Origin: Pseudobdellovibrionaceae bacterium
Lineage (GTDB): Bacteria > Bdellovibrionota > Bdellovibrionia > Bdellovibrionales > Bdellovibrionaceae
NCBI GenBank assembly: GCA_021731025.1
Contig: JAKFYD010000031.1
Location: 1-33,379 of the forward strand
DNA: 33,379 bases
Direction of reading: 5' to 3'
This document shows, one piece after another, positions 819 through 29,611 of the stretch (the stretch's first letter is position 1; every line of letters starts with the position of its first letter). The translations under genes were made by a program, and so were the position numbers. The notes beneath the pieces are model-generated. The model did no database searches, was not told where the DNA came from, and saw nothing but the letters and a program-made list of their open reading frames with translations.

Positions 819-880
819 TTTCAAGTCTCCTTCATGTTTAGTAACTGGCCAATTCATTAAATTAAATCGTTCATATTCCT

Positions 881-4018: not shown

Positions 4019-4056
4019 GATTTTCCTTAATAGTAGGAGATCGTCGTAAAAAATTT

Positions 4057-6490: not shown

Positions 6491-6505
6491 GTTTAGATTC
6501 CTTGG

Positions 6506-11234: not shown

Positions 11235-11235
11235 A

Positions 11236-11580
11236 ATGAAAAAACAATCTAAAGCACTCTTTACCTTATTGCTTCTTATCGGAGCTAGCGCTTATTCTAA
11301 AAATGGACTTATTCGACGTGAGAATCTCGATTCTCTGCACTTCGATCCAGCTACATTGAAGCAGCTCATTGACGAGAAAATTCTTTTCCCTTCGAAAATG
11401 CCATTGTTCTTTGAACTCAATGAAGAAAAAGTTGAGCAAATTCTTTTAGCGTCAAATGATCCCGAACTTTCAGAATTTCTGATTTGGCTTCGATCACTTG
11501 TTGGCGACACGACTGAAGTAAATCTGAAAAATCCTGGTGATATGACTCCTGCCAGCCAAGACATCAAGGGCTCAATATAA
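11236..11580 (+). CDS. Small exported protein of the sensory operon, function unknown
   Basis: The 114-residue product has a signal peptide (about residues 1-21, ending ASAYS). The mature part, about 90 residues, is mostly helical with leucine-rich amphipathic stretches (HFDPATLKQLIDEKILFP; EEKVEQILLASNDPELSEFL) and a polar tail. It has no cysteine and no family I recognise. It begins one base after the activator stop and precedes the solute-binding protein by 15 bases. Possible roles are a periplasmic partner of the kinase or binding protein, or a precursor of a secreted signal acted on by the YcaO protein. None of these is demonstrated. Confidence 0.75.
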   Translation: MKKQSKALFTLLLLIGASAYSKNGLIRRENLDSLHFDPATLKQLIDEKILFPSKMPLFFELNEEKVEQILLASNDPELSEFLIWLRSLVGDTTEVNLKNPGDMTPASQDIKGSI

Positions 11581-11595
11581 ATATGAGGATAAAAC

Positions 11596-14084: not shown

Positions 14085-15772
14085 AAAAAAACCACTTCTC
14101 TAGAAATTCACTCTGTCTTTTCGCAGTGATTATACTGATCAGTGGAATTTATGGAATTTGTGATTACTATCTTCAATCTATATCAAAGGAACTTACGTCC
14201 AATTGGGTACAGACAGAGGCAATTGCCATTCAAGAAGGAAATTTGCTCACGTCAATCACCAAGACACAAAGATTTTTGATTTCTTCCTCTTATATCAAAG
14301 GCGTCCGACTTGTAAAAATTGAACGTGGACAACTTCAACCAAAAATTGAATTTGGTGAGCCATTTAAATTAAGTTATCGAGACGTTTCTATTTTACCTGA
14401 AAATTTGACACAAGAACGAATTGGATTTTTGCATCAAAGGGCATTTTTAAAGATTCCACAACGCGAAGACTTCATTTTAGTTTTCGATGTTAAGTCTAAT
14501 TTTTTGAATCTTTTATTTGCAGTCAGCAGCAGTATTATTGTCATTTTAATCGTTTACCTTATTTGGTCATTGCAGCGATTGGAACAAAAGGAAGCCCAAA
14601 AGCGCGAGGCATTATTAAAGTTGGCAATTGACGATCTTCTTGAAAATGAGTCCCCATCAGCAGTTCTGGAAAAGGAAATTCCTGGCCTAGTGAAATGGTG
14701 GAAAGTTAAAAAAAGCGAATTAGAACGCACCAGGGCTATTTCCGCAGAACAGCAAAACAAAATCTTATTAGGCGAAATGGCAACAAGAACAGTTCATGAT
14801 ATAAAAGGTGCTCTAAGAAACATTCGGACTATTGTTACCATATGTAAAGCCATTGAGCCTTCTCACAAAGATATTATAGAAAAGTCCTTAGAAAAAGTGA
14901 AAAAGATTTCTCAAGGACTCCTTGAAAGCACTAGATCTGTCCATTCAGATGAGCAAAACAAACAGGTGCGTTTGAATGCTAATTTACAATTAAACTCAAT
15001 TATCGAAAGTAAAAAAATTCAATATGGATCTTCAGTTTATCTTGAAATGCAACCTAGCGTCTCGCCTGCCGTAATAATATCAGATCCCGTTCAATTTGAA
15101 CGCTCAATATCCAATTTAATTGATAACGCGATTGAGGCTTCACCCATTAATAATCTTATCCGTATCATCGTAGTTAACGACAATAATTCTGTTGAAATTA
15201 TAATTCAGGACTCAGGAAAAGGTATATCGCCAGAAAATATTCGGAAAATTGGCACGAAGGGTTTTACACACGGTAAAATCGGAGGGACCGGAATAGGCGT
15301 TTTTTATGCCAAAAAATTCGTTGAAGAGCTTGGAGGACAATTTAGTGTCGAATCGAAACTCGGAAAGGGAACCAAGGTCCGTTTGTCGTTTCGAAATGCT
15401 ATCGGGCGGATTTTCCTACGACCAAATGAACACCTATTACTATTAGAAGATCAGAATTACATCCGACAAGCTGCTAAACTCAAATTGGATGGATTAGGAA
15501 ACCAAAAACCACAATATCAAATCTTTTCAACAACAAGCGAACTAGAAACCTGGCTGTCTACCAGTAACGCAACTTTCAAGTTATATTCTGATCACTTTTT
15601 AGAGAACGAGAGTGAAACTGGAATTCAACTTATAAAGCGACTTGGTATTGCAGATAGATCTGTCCTTTTCACTTCTGCATTCGATGATCCTACCATTACT
15701 CAAGCTGCGTCTGAAATTGGCATGGAGGTTATAAGTAAAGATGAATTTTTTAATGCACAAATTATAACTTAA
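14075..15772 (+). CDS. Membrane hybrid histidine kinase with C-terminal receiver
   Basis: The 565-residue product has a membrane helix near 11-29, a periplasmic sensor region of about 110 residues, a second helix near 145-166, and a coiled linker to the dimerisation helix with phosphoacceptor His241 in RTVHDIKGALRNI. The ATPase domain has an N box (SNLIDNAIEAS) and G boxes (DSGKGIS, GGTGIGVFYAKKF). A C-terminal receiver (about 448-565) keeps the acidic pair Glu458-Asp459, a likely phospho-Asp506, Thr533-Ser534 and Lys555, though it is divergent. It overlaps the YcaO stop by 10 bases. The periplasmic loop is well placed to read the solute-binding protein, and the activator encoded first in the operon is the probable phosphorylation target. 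Confidence 0.9.
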   Translation: MSIKKNHFSRNSLCLFAVIILISGIYGICDYYLQSISKELTSNWVQTEAIAIQEGNLLTSITKTQRFLISSSYIKGVRLVKIERGQLQPKIEFGEPFKLSYRDVSILPENLTQERIGFLHQRAFLKIPQREDFILVFDVKSNFLNLLFAVSSSIIVILIVYLIWSLQRLEQKEAQKREALLKLAIDDLLENESPSAVLEKEIPGLVKWWKVKKSELERTRAISAEQQNKILLGEMATRTVHDIKGALRNIRTIVTICKAIEPSHKDIIEKSLEKVKKISQGLLESTRSVHSDEQNKQVRLNANLQLNSIIESKKIQYGSSVYLEMQPSVSPAVIISDPVQFERSISNLIDNAIEASPINNLIRIIVVNDNNSVEIIIQDSGKGISPENIRKIGTKGFTHGKIGGTGIGVFYAKKFVEELGGQFSVESKLGKGTKVRLSFRNAIGRIFLRPNEHLLLLEDQNYIRQAAKLKLDGLGNQKPQYQIFSTTSELETWLSTSNATFKLYSDHFLENESETGIQLIKRLGIADRSVLFTSAFDDPTITQAASEIGMEVISKDEFFNAQIIT

Positions 15773-15787
15773 ATTTTAAGGAACAAT

Positions 15788-16690
15788 ATGATCGAACGAT
15801 ATCAAGGCAAAGTTGGTGAAAAGCTCCTCAAGGAAGCATTGGCCGAACAAAAATTAATTAACGGAGACAACACCATAGTTAATTTTCTAATTTCTCATGG
15901 AGTTTTAATTGAAGCAATACCCAATGAAACTATCATAGCTCAAGATGCTGAAGATACAGATATCTACTTTATATTAGCAGGATCAATTGAGGTTTTAATA
16001 AATAAACGGTCGGTTGCAAAAAGAGTCTCTGGCGAACATGTTGGAGAAATGGCTCTTATTCATCCAACTGGAACTCGCAGTGCTGCAATCATCTCTAAAG
16101 AAAAGTCAGTTCTATACAAAGTATCAGAAGAATATTTTTCTGAAATCGCCGAAAATAATCCTGTTCTGTGGCGAAGGTTAGCAGCTGAGTTAGTAAAGCG
16201 CATACGAGAAAGGTCAAAATATATTTCCGAGCCTAATGACTTACCAAAAATTTTCATTGGATCTTCATCTGAATCTTTCAATAAAGCCGAAGAACTAAAA
16301 AAAACATTAGAATGTTCTGAAGTACATGTTGCGCATTGGAAAGATGGAATTTTTAAAGCTTCAACTTCAACACTAAATAGCCTTCTCGAAACCGCTAATA
16401 GTTATGACTTCGCAATTCTAATATTGCATCCCGACGACATGACTGAGAGTAGAGGCAACGAAATCGCTTCCCCTCGTGATAATGTTATTTTTGAACTCGG
16501 CTTATTTTTGGGTTCGTTAACACCTGAAAGAGTATTCATTCTGAGACCAGGCAGCAAGGAACTTAAAATTCCTTCTGATCTTTTAGGAATTACCTGCCTA
16601 TCATACCAGCTCAATGAAATAAACGATAGCGACTTAGAAAAATCAGCTAAATATATAAAAAATGAAATTGAAAAATTAAAGGTCAAGTAA
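15788..16690 (+). CDS. pycTIR: Pycsar effector: cyclic-nucleotide-binding domain fused to TIR domain
   Basis: The 300-residue product has an N-terminal cyclic-nucleotide-binding domain (about 30-140) with the phosphate-binding cassette GEHVGEMALIHPTGTRSAA. A TIR-like domain (about 150-290) begins PKIFIGSSSES and contains RDNVIFELGLFLG, with Glu236 the likely catalytic glutamate of a NADase. In Pycsar systems, cUMP or cCMP made on phage infection binds such effectors, and the TIR domain depletes NAD+ to abort infection. The cyclase gene follows with a one-base overlap (TAATG). AAGGAA precedes the ATG. It lies only 15 bases after the kinase gene, so it appears to belong to the same operon. Confidence 0.92.
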   Translation: MIERYQGKVGEKLLKEALAEQKLINGDNTIVNFLISHGVLIEAIPNETIIAQDAEDTDIYFILAGSIEVLINKRSVAKRVSGEHVGEMALIHPTGTRSAAIISKEKSVLYKVSEEYFSEIAENNPVLWRRLAAELVKRIRERSKYISEPNDLPKIFIGSSSESFNKAEELKKTLECSEVHVAHWKDGIFKASTSTLNSLLETANSYDFAILILHPDDMTESRGNEIASPRDNVIFELGLFLGSLTPERVFILRPGSKELKIPSDLLGITCLSYQLNEINDSDLEKSAKYIKNEIEKLKVK

Positions 16691-17559: not shown

Positions 17560-17641
17560 CTCCTTCTCCTCACTATTGCAAAAACATCTTACGATTTCTT
17601 AAAACATAGTAATTTCATCTCGTTATTGAAATTTGAGAATC

Positions 17642-17657
17642 TGGCACTGTCGTTGAA
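17642..17657 (+). promoter_or_regulatory. Sigma-54 (-24/-12) promoter of the conjugation operon
   Basis: TGGCAC-N5-TTGAA has a perfect -24 hexamer preceded by C and a TTG -12 core at the exact spacing. Transcription would start near 17668, about 46 bases before the first gene. The two dyads upstream complete a typical enhancer-dependent promoter. Confidence 0.7.
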
Positions 17658-17713
17658 ATATATCTCTTTGAGTGGCGCGCACTCGAAAAAATTAAAGGAG
17701 ATAGGAAACTAAA

Positions 17714-17944
17714 ATGCAGCAAATTGGAAACAACAAAGATGAAAATCGTCTCTTTGATCTGGCTCACACTAAGTGCTGTCGATGTCGATGGGTTCGTAGG
17801 CGAGTATCAGAGATAATGAGACGAATTCAGCATTGGCTTAATAAATTACTGACACCATCAGAAGTTCTTCCAAAAGAGTTTGAATATCTGACCGAATCAA
17901 ATGACCGCGAACGATTGGCGAAAACATGGTCAAGATTTTTATAA
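17714..17944 (+). CDS. First gene of the transfer operon, small basic protein, unknown function
   Basis: The 76-residue product contains a Cys/Arg-rich segment (HTKCCRCRWVRRRVSEIMRRIQ) that might bind metal or nucleic acid, and an acidic C-terminal half. It lies directly behind the sigma-54 promoter and a purine-rich AAAGGAGATAGGAAA leader. The next gene overlaps its end by 19 bases. I do not recognise the family. Confidence 0.55.
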   Translation: MQQIGNNKDENRLFDLAHTKCCRCRWVRRRVSEIMRRIQHWLNKLLTPSEVLPKEFEYLTESNDRERLAKTWSRFL

Positions 17945-18096
17945 AACTTGAGATACAAAAAATCAGAGACGATTTTCGAGAGTTCTATGGACGCTTACCC
18001 GTCGAAGAACTTGTTAAGAACTCAGCCCTGATTCATAAAATTGAAAAACTAGAGCAACAACTACGAGGATTATTGGATGACGAACGCACTGCTTAG
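17926..18096 (+). CDS. Very small protein of the transfer operon, unknown function
   Basis: The 56-residue product starts with ATG at 17926 inside the end of the previous gene and ends 20 bases inside the next one. It reads MVKIFIKLEIQKI, then REFYGRLPVEELV, and ends in a coiled-coil-like EKLEQQLRGLL. The nested overlaps on both sides are typical of a translationally coupled gene string. No family is recognised. Without this gene there would be a gap of more than 130 bases in an otherwise overlapping series. Confidence 0.5.
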   Translation: MVKIFIKLEIQKIRDDFREFYGRLPVEELVKNSALIHKIEKLEQQLRGLLDDERTA

Positions 18097-18265
18097 ATCA
18101 TTAAAAGATAAAACTGAACAGGTTGACAGAACACTTGTTGAAATTTGGGAATCGTTAACTCCCAATCTAAAACAAAAAAGACATTTTTATGAGCGATTCG
18201 TATCCATCCAAATGCAAACAAGAAAATTAACAAAATATATTAAAGAGGAAAATAAAAATGCATAA
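18077..18265 (+). CDS. Small helical protein of the transfer operon, unknown function
   Basis: The 62-residue, highly charged, helical product has a basic C-terminal half (MQTRKLTKYIKEENKNA). It overlaps both neighbours. No family is recognised. A DNA-binding, scaffold or regulatory role cannot be decided. Confidence 0.5.
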   Translation: MTNALLRSLKDKTEQVDRTLVEIWESLTPNLKQKRHFYERFVSIQMQTRKLTKYIKEENKNA

Positions 18266-18605
18266 ATCAGCAGATAGACATGAAATTTTCACCGCCTTTC
18301 GAAAAGAAAATTCACTTGAAGCTAAACTTTTAGTGGGCGCAGCTTTTAAAGAAGAAAATGAAAACTTTTATAAAATCAGACTTATGATGTTTCCTGGACA
18401 AGTTTATTACTTGGTTAAAAATAAAGACAGTAATGATCGTTACACCGTGTTTTCAAAATTGAAACACAATGATCATAAAATCTGTTTTTTAAACCCAGTT
18501 GGTAGCGGAGTTTTAGATTCAAAACTTCAAAGTTATTTGGAAGTCAGGTTTCCGCTTTTGAGAGCTTATCTTTACATGTCACTTTTCCCAGTTGCCCAAT
18601 TATAG
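18258..18605 (+). CDS. Transfer-operon protein of unknown function
   Basis: The 115-residue soluble protein has no signal peptide. It has a beta-rich middle (NFYKIRLMMFPGQVYYLVKN; RYTVFSKLKHNDHKICFL) and a hydrophobic C-terminus. GAGG precedes the ATG, within the previous gene's end. It lies just ahead of the pilin gene. The family is not recognised; it is probably specific to this kind of element. Confidence 0.6.
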   Translation: MHKSADRHEIFTAFRKENSLEAKLLVGAAFKEENENFYKIRLMMFPGQVYYLVKNKDSNDRYTVFSKLKHNDHKICFLNPVGSGVLDSKLQSYLEVRFPLLRAYLYMSLFPVAQL

Positions 18606-18618
18606 AAAGGAAAACTAA

Positions 18619-18900
18619 GTGAAATTAAAATATTTTATTTCTTTTTTAAGTCATTTAATCGCATTCGCATTTCCAGTGATGGGTTATTGCAGTGTCGAAT
18701 CCAGCCTCATGGCTGTTCAAAGTAAACTGATAGGCACCATTCTTCCACTTGCTGCAATTATCGGATTGGTCTTTGCGGGCCTTTCCTTTGTAGCCGGTAG
18801 TCCAAATGCAAGAAGCCATTTGATCCTTGCGATATTTGGCGCCGTTATTGGTTTTGGTGCACCAAGTATCGTGGGATGGATTCAAGCACTTATTCACTAA
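18619..18900 (+). CDS. virB2: VirB2/TrbC-family conjugative pilin
   Basis: The 93-residue product has an N-terminal signal (about residues 1-25) and two hydrophobic helices (about 37-58 and 65-88) separated by a short loop (GSPNARSH), the standard pilin-subunit layout. It would form the extracellular pilus of the type IV secretion system. AAAGGA lies before the GTG start. Gene order pilin-VirB3-VirB4 follows. A terminator-like hairpin right after the stop suggests the pilin is expressed more than downstream genes. Confidence 0.85.
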   Translation: MKLKYFISFLSHLIAFAFPVMGYCSVESSLMAVQSKLIGTILPLAAIIGLVFAGLSFVAGSPNARSHLILAIFGAVIGFGAPSIVGWIQALIH

Positions 18901-18906
18901 TGCAAC

Positions 18907-18937
18907 AGGATCTTTGAAAGAAGGTCCTTATTTTTTT
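18907..18937 (+). terminator. Partial (read-through) terminator after the pilin gene
   Basis: A 6-base-pair stem (AGGATC/GGTCCT, with one G-T pair) and a 10-base loop are followed by TTATTTTTTT. It lies within the transfer operon between pilin and VirB3, where an attenuator would lower transcription of the machinery genes relative to the abundant pilin. Confidence 0.55.
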
Positions 18938-18947
18938 CGAGGAGTTT

Positions 18948-19271
18948 ATGGATTTAAAAGTTACCCCTGTTAGTAAATGTTTAGATAAGAAGATGATGAT
19001 TTTGGGTTTTGAAATTCCAGATTTACTTTTTATTTTCTTAACAATGTCGGTTCTCAATTTCTTATTTGGATCAACCAGTCTCAAGTTGCTTTTTGTATGG
19101 CTCCCTTCACTAAGTCTTGCAATGCTGATTCGCTTTACGAAGCGAGGAAAACCTGACAACTATTTGGTTCACTGGCTAAGGTTTCAAATCAAACCAGGAG
19201 TGTATTCAGCCTTTTCTGATCCAACTCAAGATCTCCCTTCACCAAAGCTTAAAGTGAGGATGAGAGCATGA
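18948..19271 (+). CDS. virB3: VirB3/TrbD-like inner-membrane protein
   Basis: The 107-residue product has a short N-terminal VTPVSKCLDK segment, paired hydrophobic segments at about residues 23-60, then a basic region (RFTKRGKPDN). This matches VirB3, a small membrane component that associates with VirB4 and supports pilus assembly. GAGGAG precedes the ATG. It overlaps virB4 by four bases. Confidence 0.8.
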   Translation: MDLKVTPVSKCLDKKMMILGFEIPDLLFIFLTMSVLNFLFGSTSLKLLFVWLPSLSLAMLIRFTKRGKPDNYLVHWLRFQIKPGVYSAFSDPTQDLPSPKLKVRMRA

Positions 19272-21688
19272 GTGGAAAATTAGCTGATTGTCTTCAAATC
19301 TGGGGACTTGAAGATGATAACATTATTTTTTCAGATGGCTCATTTGGCTTATGCTTTAAGCTTAAGCCCGTTGATTGCAGCTGTTGGTCAATTCAACAAC
19401 GAAATGATTATGCAAAACAATTGATCCAATTTTTAAACGGATTACCTTCAGAAATTGATTTTCAGTTTGTCCAAGACATTAAGACTGGGAATGACGAGCT
19501 TATTAACGAACATTTAAAAAACGATAGCTCTAAAGAGGACGTTATCAATGAGTTGACACGTGCTCGAGCTGCAAAGTTTAAGAAGCTGGATTCGGACGGA
19601 AGCTTACCGCGACATGGCCTTATGTTTTTTGTACGTCGTAAACCAAGTAAGTCTTTATTAAGGAAAGCCTCATGGCGTTCGCTTTTTTCTTGGTTTTCAA
19701 AGTCTAGAAACTTCGAAGCTATTGCTGAAGATAAACTTAAAAAAGAATTAGCTGCGAGCGATCGCTTAGCTTACGACCTTGAGGGTTCGTTGATAGCGCT
19801 TGGTCTTTCTCCAGTGCGCTTAAGCGCAAGCGAGATCATCAAGCACCTTTATAGGCAATGGAATCCAAGCAGAAATATTGAGCTCGGTGAAGTTGATCCA
19901 TCCTACTTAAGATCTTCGATTCTCTTTACAGATGTAGGAACCGATAACGTTGGATTTTCGATGGGAGAGTACTTTTACCGAATTATTTCGTTAAAGCTTT
20001 TGCCGGATCAAACTTTTGCCTCGATGGCTGCAAAACTGAGAGAGTTACCCTTTGATTCTCGTCTGAGCCTAACGGTTCGAGTCCCTGATCAACAAAAGGA
20101 ACTCGACTCCCTTCAGACTCAAAGGCGAGTTGCTTATTCAATGGTTGCTGGCAAGAAAACTGGTGTCAGTGACTTAGATAGCGAAGCGAAGTTTCGGGAC
20201 CTTGAGGGTTTACTTGAGCAAATGGTGGCTTCTGGTGAAAAGGTTTTCCACATGAGCCTGCAAGTGACCTTAAGGTCGAAATACCAAGACGATCTTGAGA
20301 ATCAAGTGTCAGAGACCCTAACCAAAGTTCGTGAAATGTCTGGAGCAGAAGCTATGGAGGAAACTTTAGCCGCTTTTGATATTTTTTGCGAATCTTCGAT
20401 CCCAAACGCGCGGAGTAAGGAGAGAACTAAGCCCGTAAAAACTTCTAACTTGTGTGACATACTTCCAGTCTTTGGACCTTGGGGTGGTCACGCTGAACCA
20501 AAGATTATTTTACGATCACGGCTCGGAAGTCTTGTGAGCTTTAATCCATTTGCCAGCGAATTAACAAACTCAAATCAAATAGTGAGTGGCGGCTCAGGAA
20601 GTGGTAAATCGTTCATGACAAATATTCTTCTTATGCAAATGCTTAAGGAGAATCCCAAGGTTTTCATTGTTGATATTGGTGGGTCCTATAAAAAAATCTG
20701 CGACAACTTAAACGGACAGTACATACAATTGGGTGTTGATACTGATCTTTCAATGAATCCTTTTGATCTGGCTTTGGGTGAGGTAAAACCTAGCAGTCAA
20801 AAGATAAAATTCATTTTAAGTCTTGTCGAGATTATGACCAAAGATTCAAATCAAATTCATCTCGGAAAACTGGAAAAGTCAGAAATTGAGATAGCCATTG
20901 AAAAAGTCTATGAAGAATTCAAACGCCCGAAATTTTCTGATTTAAGGCAACTATTACTGAGTCACCCGGAAGACTCGATAAAGCGCATTGGAAAAATTTT
21001 GGCGAGCTGGTGTGGGAACTCTTCTTACGGTAAGTTTGTTGATCAAGAAACAACACTGGCTCTAAAACGCCCAATTGTTTGTTTCGATTTAAAGGGAATG
21101 GAAGCTTACCCAGATTTGCAATCGGTTTGCCTTTTTATCATTACGGATTTTGTATGGCGAGAGGTTCAAGCTGATCGCTCACACATGAAGTTCTTGATTT
21201 TAGATGAGTGCTGGAAACTCATGGAGCATGCATCAACTTTCATAGCAGAGGTTTTTCGGACCTTTCGTAAGTATTCAGCAAGTGCAATTGCCATCTCGCA
21301 AAACATGGATGACTTTGCACAGAGTAAAATCGCAAACGCTATTCTTCCAAATAGCAGCATCAAATGGGTGTTGAAACAAAAAGGCGCTGACAAGGAAAGA
21401 CTTAAAGAGGTTTTAGGTCTTAATTCAACAGAAGTAGATCTTATATCCTCACTTCACCAAGAGCGTGGATCCTATTCAGAAGCATTTCTCATAGCTGAGG
21501 ACTCAAGGGCTGTCGTTGTTATCGAGTCAACTCCTCTTGAATACTGGCTCGCAACGACTGACGGTCGTGATTTAGGAATGATTGAAGAACTTAAAACTTC
21601 AAATCCTGAATTAAAAAATTTAGAAATTTTAAAAACGTTAGCAAGCAAATACCCGAAAGGTATTGCTGCAAGTGGAGCTTTAAAATGA
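19268..21688 (+). CDS. virB4: VirB4/TrbE conjugation ATPase
   Basis: The 806-residue product has the usual size. The C-terminal half has Walker A GGSGSGKS (441-448), a VDIGGSYKKIC segment, Walker B LILDECWKLM (about 642-651) and a downstream AISQNMDDF motif. It is the inner-membrane-associated motor that energises pilus biogenesis and substrate transfer. The N-terminal half is the divergent VirB4 domain. The start overlaps virB3 (ATGA), and its stop overlaps the next gene. Confidence 0.95.
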   Translation: MSGKLADCLQIWGLEDDNIIFSDGSFGLCFKLKPVDCSCWSIQQRNDYAKQLIQFLNGLPSEIDFQFVQDIKTGNDELINEHLKNDSSKEDVINELTRARAAKFKKLDSDGSLPRHGLMFFVRRKPSKSLLRKASWRSLFSWFSKSRNFEAIAEDKLKKELAASDRLAYDLEGSLIALGLSPVRLSASEIIKHLYRQWNPSRNIELGEVDPSYLRSSILFTDVGTDNVGFSMGEYFYRIISLKLLPDQTFASMAAKLRELPFDSRLSLTVRVPDQQKELDSLQTQRRVAYSMVAGKKTGVSDLDSEAKFRDLEGLLEQMVASGEKVFHMSLQVTLRSKYQDDLENQVSETLTKVREMSGAEAMEETLAAFDIFCESSIPNARSKERTKPVKTSNLCDILPVFGPWGGHAEPKIILRSRLGSLVSFNPFASELTNSNQIVSGGSGSGKSFMTNILLMQMLKENPKVFIVDIGGSYKKICDNLNGQYIQLGVDTDLSMNPFDLALGEVKPSSQKIKFILSLVEIMTKDSNQIHLGKLEKSEIEIAIEKVYEEFKRPKFSDLRQLLLSHPEDSIKRIGKILASWCGNSSYGKFVDQETTLALKRPIVCFDLKGMEAYPDLQSVCLFIITDFVWREVQADRSHMKFLILDECWKLMEHASTFIAEVFRTFRKYSASAIAISQNMDDFAQSKIANAILPNSSIKWVLKQKGADKERLKEVLGLNSTEVDLISSLHQERGSYSEAFLIAEDSRAVVVIESTPLEYWLATTDGRDLGMIEELKTSNPELKNLEILKTLASKYPKGIAASGALK

Positions 21689-22368
21689 AGAAGTTCATAG
21701 CTATTGCAATTTCAGTTTCAATGATGCTTTCTGCGCCTGCGAAAGCTGATATTTTTGGTGGAGATGTCGCTGTACTGGTTCAAATTCTATCAAACACGAT
21801 TAAGCAGCTCGTTGAGCTTCAAAATCTGGTTAAAAATGGAAATGACCAATTGGATCTCATGAGAAGTATCAATCGTGGAGTTAATGATTCACTTCAACTT
21901 GCAAGAACTATTTATCCCAATATCGATCCTGGCCTTTACAAGGACTGGCAAAATGTCAGTGATGCTATCAATAAGTTGGAAACTATTTACGGCATCGCTA
22001 CGAACTCTCCTGTCGCAAGGATATACCGAGATACAGATCGGCAAGTGGCTGAAGCCGTCACTTTAAATAACGATATTTACAAGTACACTCAAAATATCGA
22101 CGAGCTTGGTGAAGCCATTAAGGAATACAGTCATGAAGTTTCTCCCGGCGGAGCCCAAAAACTCACAGCTCAGACTTTAGGAGTTTTACTTCAGGTCATG
22201 AATCAAAGTCTAAGAACTCAAGCCACAGGCTTAAAACTTCAAGCCCAAACAATGGCTGTTCAAAATAAGCGAGATAAAGATTCAACGAAACAGTATCTCG
22301 AAACGGCGAATACACTGAGAGTTGCTATGAAAAATGAAAAAATTCAATTCACAGCACCGAGATTTTAA
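21685..22368 (+). CDS. virB5: VirB5/TrbJ-like secreted conjugation protein
   Basis: The 227-residue product has a clear signal peptide (cleavage after PAKA, about residue 21) and a largely helical mature part with repeated amphipathic segments (VAVLVQILSNTIKQLVELQNL near the start). This is typical of TrbJ/VirB5 minor pilus-tip proteins. It follows virB4 with a four-base overlap and precedes VirB6, the expected order. Confidence 0.8.
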   Translation: MKKFIAIAISVSMMLSAPAKADIFGGDVAVLVQILSNTIKQLVELQNLVKNGNDQLDLMRSINRGVNDSLQLARTIYPNIDPGLYKDWQNVSDAINKLETIYGIATNSPVARIYRDTDRQVAEAVTLNNDIYKYTQNIDELGEAIKEYSHEVSPGGAQKLTAQTLGVLLQVMNQSLRTQATGLKLQAQTMAVQNKRDKDSTKQYLETANTLRVAMKNEKIQFTAPRF

Positions 22369-22380
22369 GAGGTAAAAAAT

Positions 22381-23292
22381 ATGGTTTCAGATATTGCTTG
22401 GCTTGCGACTGAAGCAAAGAAAATTCATGAGATATTTACCGGATACTTTTATCTCATCGTTACTGTTCTTTTACTTCTAGGAATTGTAATGGAATATTTT
22501 AAGTGGCCAATTGGACAAGTTCCAAATTTTGGTACAATGGTGGGTCGTGTTTTAATTGCAGCGATTCTACTTCATGCTTATCCAGACATTACAAATACGA
22601 TTGCAGATGTCACAGATTCGATTGCTGGAAAATTAGGAGATCTGAACAACTTTAAGCTTATTCTCGATCGAATGGGAGATAAGATTGGAGAACTTTCATG
22701 GTCGTGGGTGAGTTTTAAAGACACCGTCATGCTCTTGATTAGTTTTCTGACCTTTTTTCTGCTCTATTTTTCGATTCATATCGCTGACAGTTTCTATATT
22801 TACGTCTGGGTCATGCTTTATGTGTTTTCTCCGCTATTGATCGCTATGTACGTTCTTCCTGTAACGGCCTCAGCAACGTCGGCACTATTTCGGTCATTGG
22901 TTGAAGTGGCTTGTTGGAAAATTGTTTGGAGCGTGATCGCAACGCTGCTTTGGAGTAGCGCTCTTAGTCAGATTAACCATGACGGATCACAGGTGAGTTT
23001 TCTAACAGCTATTGGATTTAATATTATCCTTGCTGGATCACTTTTACTGACTCCGTTTGTAGTTCATGCTCTTGCAAGCGGTGGACTCTCTCAGATGGGA
23101 AAAGACTTAAGTTCTCTTGCTATAGGAGGAGTTACGGTTTCTCCAAGCAGAGCCATGGGAGTAACTTCAAGCTTTGCATCGAAGACTTTTTCTGGAAATG
23201 CACTTGGCCAACTTAGGGCTAAACCTTCTCGAAATCAGCATCAAAGAAATCAAAAAACGACTGCTGAACTTCAAACTCAAAAAAAGGAATAA
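22381..23292 (+). CDS. virB6: VirB6/TrbL-like polytopic membrane protein
   Basis: The 303-residue product has about six hydrophobic segments, including YFYLIVTVLLLLGIVMEYF near residue 20 and VMLLISFLTFFLLYFSIHI near residue 120, and a polar C-terminal tail rich in Gln and Lys. This matches the VirB6/TrbL channel component at the inner membrane. Its place between VirB5 and VirB8 supports the call. Confidence 0.75.
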   Translation: MVSDIAWLATEAKKIHEIFTGYFYLIVTVLLLLGIVMEYFKWPIGQVPNFGTMVGRVLIAAILLHAYPDITNTIADVTDSIAGKLGDLNNFKLILDRMGDKIGELSWSWVSFKDTVMLLISFLTFFLLYFSIHIADSFYIYVWVMLYVFSPLLIAMYVLPVTASATSALFRSLVEVACWKIVWSVIATLLWSSALSQINHDGSQVSFLTAIGFNIILAGSLLLTPFVVHALASGGLSQMGKDLSSLAIGGVTVSPSRAMGVTSSFASKTFSGNALGQLRAKPSRNQHQRNQKTTAELQTQKKE

Positions 23293-23295
23293 GGA

Positions 23296-23847
23296 ATGAA
23301 ATACACCGATGCTTGGGCGAACGTTGTCGCCCAGAACTTGAATTTAAAAATAGTATCAATTGTTTTTGGAGCGCTATCTCTTGTTCTTGGAATGATTACG
23401 CTTCGATTAACATTTAGAGATTCAATCATTATTGAAAGAGGTTGTTATTCAAAAACACTTCTTCCGGCAAAAGAAGACCATACAAAAGATGAAATTGAGG
23501 CTTTTCTCAAAGAATCACTTTCTCAGAGATTTAACTCAGATGTTCAACCAGTAGATGGGCTTCTATCACCAGATGAACTGCGACTTCGTAACCTTGAGCA
23601 AAAAGAATTCGATTCTCGTAAGATGACACAAAAAATTGTGATTAATAAAATAATCGAAATTCAAGATGTATTCAAAGTTGAAGCCGACAGAGTCATTTCT
23701 GTCGGTGAAGTACGCTCTGCTTTTAAGTTTCCTCTGCTTGTAAAGTTAGAGTCAAAAGCTCGATCTTATTCCAACCCATACGGGCTACTTGTAACAACGA
23801 TAAAAACCGTCGACGACAAGTTAACTGACGAAAAGGCGAAGAAGTGA
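23296..23847 (+). CDS. virB8: VirB8/TraE-like inner-membrane assembly protein
   Basis: The 183-residue product has one N-terminal membrane helix (about residues 19-37) and a periplasmic domain, the topology of VirB8 or F-type TraE. No strongly diagnostic motif is visible, so the assignment relies on topology, size and position between VirB6 and VirB9/VirB10. Its stop overlaps the next start by four bases. Confidence 0.65.
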   Translation: MKYTDAWANVVAQNLNLKIVSIVFGALSLVLGMITLRLTFRDSIIIERGCYSKTLLPAKEDHTKDEIEAFLKESLSQRFNSDVQPVDGLLSPDELRLRNLEQKEFDSRKMTQKIVINKIIEIQDVFKVEADRVISVGEVRSAFKFPLLVKLESKARSYSNPYGLLVTTIKTVDDKLTDEKAKK

Positions 23848-24239
23848 AATATTTTAAGATTTTCATGATCTATGTAGGTGCAGCCGCATTGGCACTTCTT
23901 TTAGCAGAAGACTCAGAATCAAAAGCTTCACTACGGGTTGTTAAATGTGATGAATCGAAAATGATTGATGTTTTTGTTAAACCCAACTTTGGAACAATTA
24001 TTAATTTTCCGGTAAAGCCTGACAACGTAATTCTTGGGGGGCAGAAACAATTTGGAATTGAGTATATTAAAAATGATGTTGCACTGACGGCGCTCACTTC
24101 GAGTTCAAACACAAACCTCTTTGTGTATCTACAAGGTCGTCGCTGCGGGTTTAGGCTTATTACAAGCGTGATTCAACAGGATAACCTTATCCAAGTTCGA
24201 GATCCCGAAGATGCTAAAATGAAAGTGCAGTTCAAATGA
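23844..24239 (+). CDS. virB9: Short VirB9/TraK-like protein
   Basis: The 131-residue product has an N-terminal hydrophobic signal and a beta-rich domain (RVVKCDESKMIDVFVKPNFG, then INFPVKPDNVILG, later NLFVYLQGRRCGFRLITS) resembling the N-terminal half of VirB9/TraK. The usual C-terminal domain, which contacts VirB7 and the outer membrane, is missing; typical VirB9 proteins are about twice this size. It overlaps both neighbours by four bases. Confidence 0.6.
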   Translation: MKYFKIFMIYVGAAALALLLAEDSESKASLRVVKCDESKMIDVFVKPNFGTIINFPVKPDNVILGGQKQFGIEYIKNDVALTALTSSSNTNLFVYLQGRRCGFRLITSVIQQDNLIQVRDPEDAKMKVQFK

Positions 24240-25123
24240 GTGAAGAAATAAAAGTAAAGCTAGGCAAAGATGACGGATATAAACGTCGTTGGGGCCTTAC
24301 TAAGATTCTTTACCGTCAGGAAGGACGTAAGATCAGCATCAATGCCAAAGTCACGGCATGGACTTTAAGCATCTTTATCGTGGCTGCAAGTGCTTACTCG
24401 GTTCTAGCAGAGTTTTTTAAACCTGCTCCGAGTGAGAGTAATGGGCCAATTGCATTCAACGAACAAGTGAGTGATCAAAATACGATCCAGGTGCCTAGAG
24501 GAAATTCAGAAACAGAGAAACCAAAATCAACCAAAGCGCGACTAAAAGCTGCTACTTCCTATTCGGGGCTTCAAGTGATTCAACGGCCGAACTTTGGGAA
24601 AATTCCTCCAGGAACCATGATTAAAGCTAAATTTATGACCGGGGCCTCAAACGGGCCATTAAAGGCGTCATTACTTGAAGCTTTAACTGTTAACAGCGAA
24701 GAGATAGCTCCTGAAGGTTCAATTCTAGTTGGTAACGGAAGCTCTGGCGATGACAGGCTCACGGTCCAGTTTACCAAGTTAGTATTTAGCGATGGAAGAT
24801 CACAAAATATTCAAGCTCAGGCTTGTGAGCTCTCAGACCAAACAGTGGGCGTTAAAGGGAAAAAAATAAGTAAGTATGCCATGCTATTAGCAGCGGGAGC
24901 TGGATTAAATTTTTTAAGTGGCGTTGCTGAAGGATTGCAAGAGACCCAAGTTCAAAATGGTGTTACCACAAAAAAATCAGATTTAAAAAATGCAGCTCTT
25001 AATGGAGCTTCAAAAGCAGCCCTTGATCAGTCGCAAGAAGTTCTTTCTGAACTTCGTAATAAAAAATCTATTGTTCAAGTTGATAACGGAAAAGAATTTT
25101 ACGTTTTATTTGAAGGAGATTGA
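24236..25123 (+). CDS. virB10: VirB10/TraB-like envelope-spanning protein
   Basis: The 295-residue product has a cytoplasmic N-terminus (about 1-37), one membrane helix (about 38-57), a proline- and charge-rich linker, and a C-terminal beta-barrel domain starting near IPPGTMIKAKFMTG. That opening, with the later PEGSILVGNGSS segment and a membrane-like AMLLAAGAGLNFLSGVAEG helix, is typical of the VirB10/TrbI/TraB fold that bridges inner and outer membranes. It is somewhat shorter than usual. Confidence 0.85.
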   Translation: MSEEIKVKLGKDDGYKRRWGLTKILYRQEGRKISINAKVTAWTLSIFIVAASAYSVLAEFFKPAPSESNGPIAFNEQVSDQNTIQVPRGNSETEKPKSTKARLKAATSYSGLQVIQRPNFGKIPPGTMIKAKFMTGASNGPLKASLLEALTVNSEEIAPEGSILVGNGSSGDDRLTVQFTKLVFSDGRSQNIQAQACELSDQTVGVKGKKISKYAMLLAAGAGLNFLSGVAEGLQETQVQNGVTTKKSDLKNAALNGASKAALDQSQEVLSELRNKKSIVQVDNGKEFYVLFEGD

Positions 25124-25124
25124 T

Positions 25125-26552
25125 TTGAAATCAAATTATGTAAATCCAAATTCTCATGCTTGGGCCGATAGACTTTGGTTTTTGATTAAAAAAATTGCCT
25201 TTGGCCTAAGCCAACCCGTTATCGAAGTAGTTTACGGAATTTGGAAAGATACCATTTTCTATTGGCCAATTCTCACTTGGGGAGTAATTTTTGACATTCT
25301 GGTTTTGAGTGGGCTCGATCAAATGATTTTTAACTGGTTGAGACTTTATTGGCTCTACCCAAAAAATCCCATTACCTACACGTTTTACGCTTTCTTTGGT
25401 GCAACAATGGGATTTTGGATCTGGGGAGCTATCCAAGCTAGACGCAAAGTCAATATGATCGAAAGGCTCACGCAAGTGTTCGTTGAAAGCGGACTTAAAA
25501 GCCCGATGGGAAAACTGCCGAGCTTTATCGAAGATAGGCCTGTGGATGAACTCGTTCGAAAGTTAAAGATCACAAATGCATTTATGCCAAAAGCTAAGTT
25601 TGAAGAAGCCAAAGAACGCCTTGAAAGTTCATTACAGGTTTACATTGATGAGATCACTGAAAGTAGATCAAGTGGCACGATTGATATTTTATACTCTCAT
25701 TATGAAATTGCTAGAATGGTTGAGGCAGAAAACATTTCGTTAATTGGACCTCATAAATTTTTTATTGGTCAAACTAGAGCTAAGCCAATTTATTCGAGTT
25801 TAATTGAAACCCCTCATCTGCTTATTGGTGGTCAAACTGGAGGCGGTAAATCCACGTTCTTACGACAGTTAGTTACAACGTTCTATACGAATAATCCAAG
25901 CTACAAGTTTTCGCTGATTGATATGAAAGGCGGACTGGAATTTCAAATCTTTGAAGGCATTCCAAGGGCAACAGTCTATTCGACCTTTGATGATGCTAAG
26001 AAGCTATTTGAAGAATTGGACAACATGCTCACGGAAAGAATGAAAATTCTGAAATTTAATACTTCAAAAGACATTGAAGCTTTTAACATGATCCCTCTTA
26101 CAGAAAGAAAGCGTCCAGACGATGTTTCTGATGAAAGCATGGATATTCAAAGGCATGTTACCGTCATTGATGAAGCTGCCGAATTATTTCTTGCGAGTGC
26201 CAAATCAAACATTTCAGATGTCCAAGCCCTTAGCCGTCGTGCCATTCGCATAGCTGCGCAAGGCCGAGCTGTAGGATTACATTTAATTGTTGCGACTCAG
26301 AAACCAGATTCGAAAGCGATTAATAGTCAGATCAAAGCTAACTTAACTGGAATTATTTCTTTTCCAATGGCCACACTTGGTGCAAGTTTTTCCATTCTCG
26401 GAAATGGTCGTGCCAAAGAACTTCCAGCCATTCCAGGGCGAGCCATTTGGAAAAACGGATTAGAACAGTTTGAAGTCCAAACTCCATTCTTAAATCCCCA
26501 CGACACCAAGTGCCTTTTGGATAAAATTAAGAAGGATACACCCAATGGGTAA
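25125..26552 (+). CDS. FtsK/HerA-type conjugative coupling protein
   Basis: The 475-residue product starts at the TTG at 25125, six bases after AAGGAG. A longer frame opening at 24990 would overlap virB10 by 134 bases. Two membrane segments (about 47-65 and 85-103) are followed by a motor domain with Walker A GGQTGGGKS (235-243) and Walker B VTVIDEAAELF (about 345-355), plus GRAVGLHLIVATQKPD, a motif typical of FtsK/SpoIIIE and TcpA-like motors. It would deliver DNA to the secretion channel in place of a VirD4/TraG protein. It overlaps the next gene by eight bases. Confidence 0.85.
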   Translation: MKSNYVNPNSHAWADRLWFLIKKIAFGLSQPVIEVVYGIWKDTIFYWPILTWGVIFDILVLSGLDQMIFNWLRLYWLYPKNPITYTFYAFFGATMGFWIWGAIQARRKVNMIERLTQVFVESGLKSPMGKLPSFIEDRPVDELVRKLKITNAFMPKAKFEEAKERLESSLQVYIDEITESRSSGTIDILYSHYEIARMVEAENISLIGPHKFFIGQTRAKPIYSSLIETPHLLIGGQTGGGKSTFLRQLVTTFYTNNPSYKFSLIDMKGGLEFQIFEGIPRATVYSTFDDAKKLFEELDNMLTERMKILKFNTSKDIEAFNMIPLTERKRPDDVSDESMDIQRHVTVIDEAAELFLASAKSNISDVQALSRRAIRIAAQGRAVGLHLIVATQKPDSKAINSQIKANLTGIISFPMATLGASFSILGNGRAKELPAIPGRAIWKNGLEQFEVQTPFLNPHDTKCLLDKIKKDTPNG

Positions 26553-27438
26553 GGCAGAAGTGAAATTTAAACTCAGCCAAAATGATTACAAATGTTTGAT
26601 GTTTATTTGGCAGTGGAAACTTTGCACCACTGCTCTTTTGAAACATGCCATATATAAAGAAAAAACTTACTATCGCACGTACCGGCGACTGAGAGATCTT
26701 GCAAAATTGAATTTCTTAACCGCTTTGATGTCAACCGATGGAAATCACTATGTATGGAGCCTAACAGAGAAAGGATTTGCATTTCTAGAAAGCCACCTGC
26801 CAGAACTAGAATCACATGGGTTTAAATCGGAAAATCGAGACCATGATTTTTGGGTCACAGCCATTCATTTAGGAGAATGGATAGACCGTGTTCCAAAAAA
26901 TTGTGCTCTCATTTCAGAGCAGCAGCTACGACGCTATAAATTGTCTGATTACCCGGATTGGATTCCAAGGACATCTAGCCATCGGCCTGATGGTTGGTGG
27001 AATATTAATCTTGGTAAACCGCAAAACCAGAGTCTTATCGCTCTTGAAGTAGAACTATCCAGAAAAACTCCGATGAGGTACCATAAAGCAGCCACCTATT
27101 ACTCAAACACGGTACAGCCTTACCAAGTGATTTGGGTTGTTGCCAATAGTAAGGATTCAAAGTGCATTGACGATGCCATTAAGTCGGTGTCTTCAACTCG
27201 TGGTGAAGAGCAAAGCTTTTTAACCATCGACCAATACATTCAGAATCAATGGCAGAGCAAAATTGAAAAAGGTAAAAATCAAGGAAAAACCCTTTTAGAA
27301 ATTTTGGGAAAGTCACCGGAAAGTAACCCGAGAGAACTTTCCGGTCTCTTTCCGCTCGATACTCGAAAATGTCCAACAATTTCAAAGAATCATGACATTG
27401 TTCAAACCAGGCAAGTCCGGTTCAGTCGTGATTTATAG
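26545..27438 (+). CDS. Replication-relaxation family protein (possible relaxase or relaxosome subunit)
   Basis: The 297-residue product has an N-terminal winged-helix-like domain (about 8-85; YYRTYRRLRDLAKLNFL) and a C-terminal domain with RPDGWWNI and IALEVELSRKTPMRYHKA. Its Asp149, Glu168/Glu170 and Lys174 resemble a PD-(D/E)XK-type nuclease core. This is the layout of the replication-relaxation (Replic_Relax) family found on conjugative elements beside FtsK-like coupling proteins. No other relaxase is visible in the window, so it is the best candidate for nicking or processing at the transfer origin. This function is inferred. Confidence 0.7.
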   Translation: MGKAEVKFKLSQNDYKCLMFIWQWKLCTTALLKHAIYKEKTYYRTYRRLRDLAKLNFLTALMSTDGNHYVWSLTEKGFAFLESHLPELESHGFKSENRDHDFWVTAIHLGEWIDRVPKNCALISEQQLRRYKLSDYPDWIPRTSSHRPDGWWNINLGKPQNQSLIALEVELSRKTPMRYHKAATYYSNTVQPYQVIWVVANSKDSKCIDDAIKSVSSTRGEEQSFLTIDQYIQNQWQSKIEKGKNQGKTLLEILGKSPESNPRELSGLFPLDTRKCPTISKNHDIVQTRQVRFSRDL

Positions 27439-27460
27439 AGATTTTTATGCGAGGTGTGTT

Positions 27461-27694
27461 TTGAAGTTAGTGGTAATGTCGGTTTTAGGAACAATATTAA
27501 TGTGTGGGTGTTCCTCGGTGAACAAACCCATTCCGAATCAAGCATCTAATAGCAATAAATCAGATAACAAATCTCCGTCATTAACAACGCCAAAAGTTCG
27601 TAAGGTTTGGGTCGCTGAGAAAATTGAGGGCGATAAATATATTGAAGGTCACTGGATGTGGGTTTTAGAAAGGACAACAACATGGAGTCAGTAA
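27461..27694 (+). CDS. Small lipoprotein, VirB7-like candidate
   Basis: The 77-residue product starts at the TTG at 27461, six bases after GAGG, which yields a lipoprotein signal ending LMCGC. An upstream ATG at 27392 would add residues before the signal and overlap the previous gene. A Ser/Asn-rich linker precedes a conserved-looking end (KVWVAEKIEGDKYIEGHWMW). Small lipoproteins with this layout often serve as VirB7 or TraV-like outer-membrane anchors of the secretion pore; that role is inferred from context. Confidence 0.6.
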   Translation: MKLVVMSVLGTILMCGCSSVNKPIPNQASNSNKSDNKSPSLTTPKVRKVWVAEKIEGDKYIEGHWMWVLERTTTWSQ

Positions 27695-28149
27695 ATAATG
27701 ATTTGAAAAAGAAGATCCAAAAGATTGATCGTGTCGTTTTAGATGCAGAATCAATTGCAGCAGTTCAAGCTTTGCAACAAGAGGTGAATGATAAATTGGG
27801 AGATCTAGTTCAGATCTCTTTAAAGGATATTGTAAATTTCGTACTTCGGAAAAGAATTTTCTCGCTAAAAGAAGACGAACTGAATGAATTAAAGTCGGAA
27901 CATTTCGATTTGGTAAAAGCCTTAAGGAAAGCCACTTCCGAGGTTATCAAAGCTAAACAAAATGGATTTGAATTTCAGTTGGATGAGGTTTTAAAAATTA
28001 TTCAGACACCGGGTGTTAGCCAGAGCTTATCTTCTAAAAAGGTACGAGGACGTAAAACAAAGGTAAGTATCCACCCTACCCTGAACACAAAATTAGATAT
28101 TAATAGCGACGAAGCTCCTGGTGATAAACCGTCAAAAAATGACCAATAA
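27682..28149 (+). CDS. Putative transfer accessory DNA-binding protein
   Basis: The 155-residue product starts at the ATG at 27682 behind AAAGGA, overlapping the lipoprotein gene by 13 bases. An upstream GTG at 27658 is less well supported. It is helical and charged, with a region (VQISLKDIVNFVLRKR) that could be part of a ribbon-helix-helix or similar fold, and a basic tail (SSKKVRGRKTKVSIHP). Relaxosome accessory proteins often look like this, but no named family is recognised. Confidence 0.5.
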   Translation: MESVNNDLKKKIQKIDRVVLDAESIAAVQALQQEVNDKLGDLVQISLKDIVNFVLRKRIFSLKEDELNELKSEHFDLVKALRKATSEVIKAKQNGFEFQLDEVLKIIQTPGVSQSLSSKKVRGRKTKVSIHPTLNTKLDINSDEAPGDKPSKNDQ

Positions 28150-28169
28150 AAAAACACAAAATTAGACTC

Positions 28170-28214
28170 AAAAATCGAGAATTCTCAAGATTTTTCAAAC
28201 CAAAAATCATCTTG
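28170..28214 (+). promoter_or_regulatory. Overlapping inverted repeats ahead of the excisionase gene
   Basis: The palindrome GAGAATTCTC (28177-28186) is flanked by AAAAATC and GATTTTT arms (28170-28195), giving a terminator-like hairpin ending in a T-run. A second stem, CAAGAT (28186-28191) with ATCTTG (28209-28214), reuses the same right arm. The two foldings exclude each other, so this could be an attenuator, a terminator of the transfer operon, or operators for control of excision. Confidence 0.4.
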
Positions 28215-28229
28215 ATTTGTGAGGTAAAA

Positions 28230-28457
28230 ATGGCGAAATTGAAATCAATGGAAGACCAAAAGTCTTTCTTGTTCTTTGAAAATTTAGAGTGGATGAGTTC
28301 TGAAGAAGCAGCCCGATATCTGAGACGCTCGGTTGGGCAAATCCGAAATATGGTGTATCGTGGTCAAATCAAATCTCGAAAATTCAACAGTAGGTTGTAT
28401 TTTCGAAAAAACGATCTTGAACGAGCTATTGAATTCTCACTTAAAGGAGGATTCTAG
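28230..28457 (+). CDS. xis: Excisionase-like helix-turn-helix protein
   Basis: The 75-residue product starts at the ATG at 28230, six bases after GAGG; a start further upstream at 28212 is weaker. WMSSEEAARYLRRSVGQIRNMV followed by RLYFRKNDLERAIEF matches the MerR-like winged helix-turn-helix of excisionases. Such proteins bend attachment-site DNA to direct excision. Its stop overlaps the integrase start (TAGTG). Confidence 0.8.
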   Translation: MAKLKSMEDQKSFLFFENLEWMSSEEAARYLRRSVGQIRNMVYRGQIKSRKFNSRLYFRKNDLERAIEFSLKGGF

Positions 28458-29611
28458 TGGCAATAAACGAGTATGTCGAAAATGGAGAAAATCTTTGGTC
28501 AGTTTATGTCAATATTCGAAGTAAAGAAAACCCGAGAATTCGGGTTCAAAAAAGAATAAAAGGACTAAAAACCCAAAGTGCTGCTCTTCAGGAAGAAAAA
28601 AAAGTTTTAAGATTTCTCACTGAGGAAGTTTCCAAGCAACAGCAACGAGGCCAAACATGGATAGAGCTTGTTGATGCGTGGGAACTTACAGAAAGAAAAA
28701 ACCCAGATCGCACAACTAGCGATACAACATTTATAGATAACTTGTCTTTGTTGCGACGTTGGACTCAAAGTTTGTTTCCCCTACACGCCTTAGAAATTGG
28801 ACGTGCAGAAATAAAGCAAATTCTTAGAGATGCGGAGAGGCAAGGAAAATCTCGCAGTTTCCAGGTTAACTTGAAGGCTGCGATTAACGGTGTTTATAAT
28901 TGGGCCATCGATGAAGGACGTCTTAAAGGAATTACAAAACTTCCTACAGAAGAGGTCCGTGTACAAAAACGGGCCGAGGAAAAGCTTCCCGAAATTTTGA
29001 CTCTTGAAGAAGTTAAAAAACTTATTTCAGAGGCTAAAATTCATAAGCATCCTTGGTATCCAGTTTGGGTGACTGCACTTTTGACCGGAATGAGATCGGG
29101 TGAACTTCATGCTTTGCTTTGGACTGATATAGATTTTGAAAATGATAGGATCTTTTTATCAAAATCCTATAATCCAAGATTCAAAATCGTTAAAAGTACT
29201 AAGGCAAACTACTGGAGGAACGTTCCGATTTCCACCGAGCTTAAAAGTTTACTGCTACACCTCAAGTCTGAATCTCCAGAGAGAGAACATGTTCTTCCTC
29301 GGTTTTGGCAATGGGATCGTGGCGAACAAGCCGCTATCCTAAGAAAATTCTGCCAGGAGATCGGCATCAAATCAGTGAAATTTCATACCCTTCGAGCTTG
29401 TTTCGCAACTCAGCTTTTGGGCAACGGAATTTCATCTGTTAGAGTACAAAAGATCTGTGGATGGAAAGACCTCAAAACGATGGAACGATATGTTAGGCTG
29501 GCTGGCGTTGATGAAAGGGGCGCAACTGAGAATCTTAAAATTCTGCCTACAGATGCTGAAGTCATGGCTCAAGTGGTGAATTTGTGTGACTTCAAGGCAG
29601 AGAATAGTTAG
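28457..29611 (+). CDS. int: Tyrosine recombinase integrase
   Basis: The 384-residue product has an N-terminal arm-binding region, a core-binding domain (about 65-165) and a catalytic domain with the full set of active residues: Arg213 (TGMRSGEL), His310 and Arg313 (HTLR), Trp336 (CGWKD) and the nucleophile Tyr345 (ERYVRL). It would catalyse integration and excision of the element. It starts with GTG behind GGAGG and overlaps the excisionase stop. As the last element gene it points to an attachment site within the next 140 bases. Confidence 0.95.
   Translation: MAINEYVENGENLWSVYVNIRSKENPRIRVQKRIKGLKTQSAALQEEKKVLRFLTEEVSKQQQRGQTWIELVDAWELTERKNPDRTTSDTTFIDNLSLLRRWTQSLFPLHALEIGRAEIKQILRDAERQGKSRSFQVNLKAAINGVYNWAIDEGRLKGITKLPTEEVRVQKRAEEKLPEILTLEEVKKLISEAKIHKHPWYPVWVTALLTGMRSGELHALLWTDIDFENDRIFLSKSYNPRFKIVKSTKANYWRNVPISTELKSLLLHLKSESPEREHVLPRFWQWDRGEQAAILRKFCQEIGIKSVKFHTLRACFATQLLGNGISSVRVQKICGWKDLKTMERYVRLAGVDERGATENLKILPTDAEVMAQVVNLCDFKAENS

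Follow-up and report, generated by a model that had tools for sequence, protein, structure and literature searches.

The window analysed here is a 33,379-bp stretch of DNA, the whole of one contig (C40) in the 3.49-Mb, 81-contig genome of a Pseudobdellovibrionaceae bacterium (phylum Bdellovibrionota), and it holds the greater part of an integrative conjugative element (ICE). The integrase, type IV secretion system (T4SS), relaxase candidate and coupling protein that together define an ICE are all encoded on this one element. We read the locus as the DNA-processing end of the element, in which a MOBC-type relaxase and a TcpA-type coupling ATPase would serve a VirB2-10 channel that lacks VirB11, and give this reading a probability of about 80%. 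It is built on observed gene content, gene order and recurrence, on motif and profile homology, and on the predicted fold of the motor. The new point is the presence of a TcpA-type coupling protein and a MOBC relaxase on a T4SS with VirB9 and VirB10 in a Gram-negative phylum.

The two central genes lie on the forward strand. The coupling protein gene (25125..26552, 475 aa) has a TTG start codon at 25125, preceded by an AAGGAGA stretch, and encodes an N-terminal membrane region and a motor domain at about residues 110-473. The relaxase candidate, a replication-relaxation protein of 297 aa (26545..27438), has a MarR-like winged helix-turn-helix (wHTH) domain at about residues 10-87 and a C-terminal PD-(D/E)XK-like core. 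A preliminary description of 25125-28149 had recorded an FtsK-type motor directly before a replication-relaxation protein with Asp149, Glu168, Glu170 and Lys174 in its core. That order holds, and the genes overlap by 8 bp; the interval up to 28149 additionally holds a lipoprotein gene and a small basic protein gene. The motor does belong to the FtsK_SpoIIIE family (PF01580, E 1.1e-21), but its TcpA-like character had not been seen. The four residues were correctly placed. However, the same description saw no MOB-type relaxase, and the replication-relaxation protein is itself, by profile alignment, domain order and signature, a relaxase candidate of the MOBC kind. An element without a relaxase was rejected because this protein is MOBC-like.

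The core signature of the protein encoded at 26545-27438 is HRPD149G followed by E168xE170xxxK174. All four residues are kept in 32 of 35 family members (D149 and E168 in 35, E170 in 34, K174 in 33), in 36 of 39 further MOBC-like proteins from the phylum and in 4/4 annotated plasmid MobC/replication-relaxation proteins. Annotated MobC has the same D, ExE, K signature with spacing identical to that in the window protein, and the MOBC relaxases CloDF13 MobC, pAD1 TraX and pR11-698-3 MobC share the wHTH and PD-(D/E)XK core. In TraX the corresponding set is D152, E170, E172, K176, R180 and Y181. When the 35 members were compared with three annotated plasmid MobC using hhalign, the match (probability 97.4, E 1e-11) spanned the wHTH and the core, the aligned stretches being the wHTH, HRPDG and A-x-E-x-E-x3-K; one MobC alone gave a probability of 96.3 and E 2e-9. 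Identity in these alignments is 20-23%, and the window protein is longer than MobC (297 versus about 243 aa). In the AlphaFold model (pLDDT, predicted local distance difference test, 88.5), a strand starts directly after D149, another strand bears E168 and E170, and a helix follows K174, a secondary structure that agrees with a PD-(D/E)XK core. The top structural matches of the N-terminal domain belong to the MarR family, but Z is low (about 6) and the wHTH evidence is therefore supportive only. In a viral library, phage proteins including Gp146 of Bacillus phage G span most of the model (E down to 6.4e-7). MOBC relaxases are described as PD-(D/E)XK-related proteins that begin with a wHTH, the prototype examined by mutation being TraX of pAD1 (PMC12857230). 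The alignments support a place for the window protein as a member, or a close but divergent relative, of the MOBC relaxases. That it may nick the DNA for transfer, as had been suggested, is the reading with the best support and thus right in outline, but the class is a known one and the nickase not of a new kind.

The motor protein has no match to the VirD4 families PF02534 and PF10412. When a profile of 32 family members was compared with the sequences in the PDB, TcpA of pCW3 came first (206.7 bits, E 4.7e-60, columns 128-456) and FtsK second (127.1 bits, E 6.5e-36, columns 218-429), followed by EccC-type proteins. The window sequence alone also placed TcpA first and FtsK second. The predicted structure (pLDDT 87.9) aligned with TcpA over 347 residues (Z 36.1, root mean square deviation [rmsd] 3.0) and with FtsK at Z 31.7 and rmsd 7.5, and Foldseek concurred. 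TrwB and VirD4 were not among the 50 solved-structure matches listed, an absence that excludes nothing. The profile covers a Bacillota plasmid protein, whose locus has genes of the TcpD and TcpE families, over columns 12-457 (218.8 bits), whereas its matches to four cellular FtsKs begin only at about column 204 (98-150 bits). In the motor tree, the four cellular FtsKs separate from all other rows (Shimodaira-Hasegawa-like approximate likelihood ratio test [SH-aLRT] 100), although only these four cellular rows and one row from a Tcp locus were included and three long branches warn of its limits. The FtsK of the same genome (on contig C23) reaches only 48.5 bits and clusters with other cellular FtsKs, and a chromosomal-type FtsK was rejected as the motor. 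By sequence and in its predicted fold, the motor is TcpA-like, with TcpA of pCW3 as its closest solved relative, and is not a chromosomal-type FtsK.

A relaxase profile made from five sequences matches 162 of 368 genomes of Bdellovibrionota, and the nearest named relatives of the window are metagenome-assembled genomes of Bdellovibrionales (replication-relaxation proteins 84% and 44% identical). The order of motor and relaxase genes was counted in 22 larger loci, the window excluded, and in 29 shorter loci, two of which (L012 and L013) coincide with L004 and L005. The motor gene is directly upstream of the relaxase gene in 22/22 larger loci and adjacent to it in 28/29 shorter loci. VirB10 comes immediately before the motor in 21 of the 22; in the remaining one, L055, only the two genes are visible. 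The L052 motor is spread across two reading frames. The module gene order is kept in L004 and L005, and two paralogous copies of the module are present in the same genome as the window, on contigs C16 and C25.

A further 40 loci, a non-random sample picked from weaker relaxase-profile matches together with C76 and C64 of the same genome, had a TcpA-like gene upstream of the MOBC gene in 18 cases, VirD4 in three and neither in 19. Of those with neither, 18 were placed on the tree after removal of one 94-aa fragment. A large serine-recombinase-like protein (assigned by sequence) of one shared family is encoded one or two genes downstream in 11 of the 18 and a tyrosine integrase is present in four, and these loci with recombinase genes are candidates for mobilisable elements. 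L104 and L124 have TcpA-like, MOBC and integrase genes and no VirB4 within the 14 kb fetched. The 10-kb contig C76 (L121, G000:C76:1-10010) encodes VirB2-3-4-5-6-8-9-10 homologues, VirD4 (PF02534), a small lipoprotein and a MOBC-like protein of 265 aa, and is a second MOBC conjugation system in this genome. A 94-aa relaxase remnant (L122, G000:C64:5357-5584) is perhaps a decayed copy of the element.

In a quick, midpoint-rooted tree of 78 relaxases, TcpA-linked rows fall mainly in two groups of 36 and 19 rows (SH-aLRT 98 and 99), and the TcpA label changes 4 times, compared with a mean of 21.2 when labels were shuffled. These two groups also separate in the motor tree (SH-aLRT 72 and 100), and on this shared pattern of sequence relationships the TcpA-MOBC pairs therefore seem to have been inherited together.

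Each half of the pair resembles a known system. The conjugative MOBC plasmid pR11-698-3 of Escherichia coli has its type IV coupling protein gene directly before mobC, the same operon slot as in the window. In CloDF13 mobB-mobC and in C76, a coupling protein and a MOBC relaxase are likewise encoded near each other, and C76 also has VirB10 upstream, but there the coupling protein is VirD4, and in C76 the lipoprotein gene separates it from the relaxase gene. The annotated MobC examined all have VirD4-type partners, whereas the window partner is TcpA-like. TcpA of pCW3 and of Tcp-like loci shares the FtsK_SpoIIIE motor and N-terminal membrane region with the window motor. However, the partner relaxase in TcpA systems is MOBM or MOBT, not MOBC-like, and the window channel, unlike that of pCW3-type systems, has the VirB9- and VirB10-type genes of a two-membrane machine. 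We note that the RefSeq record of CloDF13 has mobC broken over two frames (L011), and that PLSDB types CloDF13, the MOBC prototype, as non-mobilizable.

According to a 2025 review, the coupling proteins of all Gram-negative T4SSs are of the VirD4 type, and TcpA is confined to part of the Gram-positive systems of mating-pair formation class FA (MPF_FA) (PMC12857230). In streptococcal integrative mobilizable elements, no combination of TcpA with a MobC relaxase was ever seen (PMC5357655). The window motor, in Bdellovibrionota and with a VirB9/VirB10-type channel, is outside the MPF_FA Gram-positive distribution of TcpA, which is a reported distribution rather than a structural definition. The open-access literature searched gave no earlier account of TcpA paired with MOBC or of the Bdellovibrionota elements, and the combination of a TcpA-type coupling protein, MOBC and a VirB9/VirB10 T4SS in Gram-negative bacteria is not described in the parts consulted of PMC12857230, PMC5357655, PMC5704250, PMC7431656 and PMC3158045. 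The TcpA-MOBC family breaks both of these rules and is common. Because the same phylum, and even the same genome, has MOBC elements with VirD4, and the phylum has MOBC-only loci by integrases, these elements provide a natural experiment on the part played by the coupling protein in relaxase recognition and in single- or double-stranded transfer. Annotation pipelines that use VirD4 and HUH relaxase profiles will label such elements relaxase-less.

Several observations weigh against the reading of the pair as relaxase and coupling protein of an ICE. Arg178 is invariant in the annotated MobC chosen for comparison but kept in only 10/35 members. The PF13814 (Replic_Relax) score is 21.7 bits (E 2.4e-4), under the curated cut-off of 25.3, and this model matches just 8/35 members at E<=0.01. 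For NF041423 (MobC_subf), the score is 20.8 bits (E 1.9e-4) and the cut-off is 200, while the control MobC, L041, reaches 243 bits. Judged by these scores, the window protein is outside the CloDF13-type NF041423 subfamily and, at the Pfam cut-off, outside PF13814; it is therefore a divergent relative of MOBC, one that library searches at curated thresholds overlook. No nuclease was among the solved-structure matches listed for the core, wHTH matches having filled the lists, and this absence too excludes nothing. The window search established no origin of transfer (oriT), and its left attachment site was not found: the integrase end shares no direct repeat of at least 12 bp with the left part of the window. 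Finally, on Bacillota plasmids typed as non-mobilizable (L142:3914-5636 and L143:3452-5483, from Priestia and Brevibacillus), an FtsK-type gene overlaps a replication-relaxation gene, and the pair alone is therefore no proof of conjugation. However, the Priestia and Brevibacillus proteins have E-V-D or E-V-Q in place of the MOBC E-x-E and are therefore at best distant parallels.

If the pair acts in conjugation, the relaxase wHTH would bind oriT and the PD-(D/E)XK core would nick one strand with a divalent metal. The TcpA-type ATPase would then bring the relaxosome to the VirB2-10 channel without VirB11 and pump the DNA. Nicking, coupling, transfer and a single-stranded substrate are what we infer from the observations above. 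It is also possible, but unlikely, that motor and nuclease move double-stranded DNA, or DNA without a covalent bond to the relaxase, through the T4SS. The authors of the TcpA structure suggest double-stranded translocation, and a covalent relaxase-DNA intermediate has never been observed for MOBC (both PMC12857230), and the window motor is nearest to TcpA and FtsK. However, TcpA-like proteins also occur with the oriT-nicking MOBM and MOBT relaxases (PMC12857230), and sequence alone says nothing on the substrate. For a diderm machine, the same doubtful proposal would have an FtsK/TcpA-like double-strand motor and a non-covalent relaxase of restriction-nuclease type move duplex or unlinked DNA through a two-membrane T4SS that lacks VirB11. 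If true, this way of moving DNA would stand between F-type conjugation and the TraB transfer of Streptomyces, and would be common in Bdellovibrionota.

FtsK-like proteins partition DNA, and the Pfam name of the relaxase candidate is 'replication-relaxation'. A role of the pair in replicating or segregating the element after excision, with another factor nicking oriT, was considered on these grounds and because the pair is present on Bacillota plasmids without typed mobility, in one case near a tubulin-like gene. We consider this quite improbable. The pair is embedded in a virB operon, and elsewhere in this genome the corresponding place ahead of a MOBC protein is taken by VirD4. A second relaxase was also sought in three delimited, complete related elements (G157C2, G350C23 and G319C4), of which 36 of 43 listed cargo open reading frames (ORFs) were scanned (seven of the smallest were omitted, and one ORF spanning two stretches was entered in part). 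No relaxase family was detected among these 36 ORFs, either among all 17 families matched at E<=1e-7 or among the best 25 of 37 families at E<=1e-3, and PF03432 is absent from the genome. Thus, wherever the element or its relatives could be searched beyond the transfer genes, no canonical relaxase was found. Least likely of all is a T4SS kept as an effector or predation device by an element that no longer transfers: the host clade includes predators, but the T4SS is conserved together with genes for a relaxase, an Xis-like protein and an integrase and with direct repeats linked to tRNA genes.

The transfer module as a whole occupies 17714-29611, with all genes on the forward strand. At its head are three small conserved genes of unassigned function (17714-17944, 18077-18265 and 18258-18605), with homologues in L004 and L005. 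These are followed by a VirB2 pilin gene (18619..18900, PF04956 E 2.4e-6), a VirB3/TraL-like gene (18948..19271; PF11990/PF07178 weak, position conserved) and the gene for a VirB4/TraC ATPase (19268..21688, PF19044 3.3e-41). The latter is nearest to F-type TraC, with a TIGR02746 match (5e-90) of 302 bits versus a cut-off of 567. A gene for a weakly matched VirB5-like exported protein is at 21685..22368 (TIGR02791 E 0.009). The VirB6-like protein (22381..23292) has five hydrophobic segments, and its same-position homologue matches PF04610 (E 2.7e-4); the VirB8-like protein (23296..23847) has one N-terminal membrane segment and a same-position homologue with a weak PF04335 match (E 0.007); and the short VirB9-like protein (23844..24239, TIGR02781 E 1e-3) has longer same-position homologues that match PF03524 (CagX). 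These three labels are weak in the window proteins and come from the positional homologues, whose PF04610, PF04335 and PF03524 matches are all under cut-off. The gene for VirB10/TrbI (24236..25123, PF03743 E 2.6e-17) directly precedes that of the motor.

Downstream of the relaxase gene are a gene for a lipoprotein that is a VirB7 candidate by position and lipobox only (27392..27694), and one for a small basic protein (27658..28149, probable start 27682) with no convincing Pfam family, which may be a relaxosome accessory protein. The module closes with an HTH_17, excisionase-like gene (28212..28457, PF12728 5.5e-11) and a tyrosine integrase gene (28457..29611, PF00589 3.4e-23) that in relatives adjoins tRNA 3' ends. 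No VirB11/T2SSE family member was detected among the window ORFs scanned or, at E<=1e-7, among the 36 related cargo ORFs, in agreement with the preliminary description. The F-type T4SS needs no VirB11 either (PMC12857230), but none of the F-specific TraN, TraU, TraW, TraF or TraH was recognised in Pfam scans of the window module.

Of 22 stretches, three have direct repeats that were accepted as attachment sites: 85 bp at tRNA-Leu in G157C2 (element about 24.5 kb), 15 bp at the tRNA-Gln 3' end in G350C23 (about 27.2 kb) and 17 bp in G319C4 (about 22 kb). Repeats of at least 15 bp were present in five of the 22, but the 15-bp repeats of G130C1 and G000C25, stretches in which no integrase end was detected, were not counted. 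The integrase end is at most 200 bp from a tRNA gene in 5 of the 15 stretches with a detected integrase. The transfer-messenger RNA gene was rejected as the integration site; it is on C16, about 44 kb from the integrase of that contig, to which it is also wrongly placed. An inverted repeat at 27307-27354 was rejected as oriT, as it is within coding DNA and only partly kept in L004. A noncoding block with a hairpin, GAGTG-GCGCG-CACTC, at 17640..17690 (forward strand), 5' of the module, is a candidate for oriT or a promoter; it is shared with L004 and not clearly kept in L005. Read against a sigma-54 consensus, this block reaches the threshold in 2 of 19 stretches (0.2 expected), but these two are close relatives and the -12 GC is missing.

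Left of the module, 9846-15772 encodes an NtrC-type sigma-54 response regulator, an SBP_bac_5 protein, a YcaO-like protein and a histidine kinase. This series recurs in G162C12 (59-83% identity), G235C155 and G193C90, a homologue of the NtrC-type regulator is present in 14 of 21 other stretches, and the series is a possible transfer-control cassette. A resistance-nodulation-division (RND) efflux operon at 468-7765, on the reverse strand, is recurrent cargo, as G235C155 (AcrB-like, 72%) and G358C113 (65%) likewise have it next to the module, and the window element therefore probably runs past the left end of the contig. Between the possible control cassette and the module, the gene at 15788-16690 encodes cyclic-nucleotide-binding and CAP12/Pycsar-type TIR domains (PF00027, PF10137) and resembles a defence effector carried as cargo.

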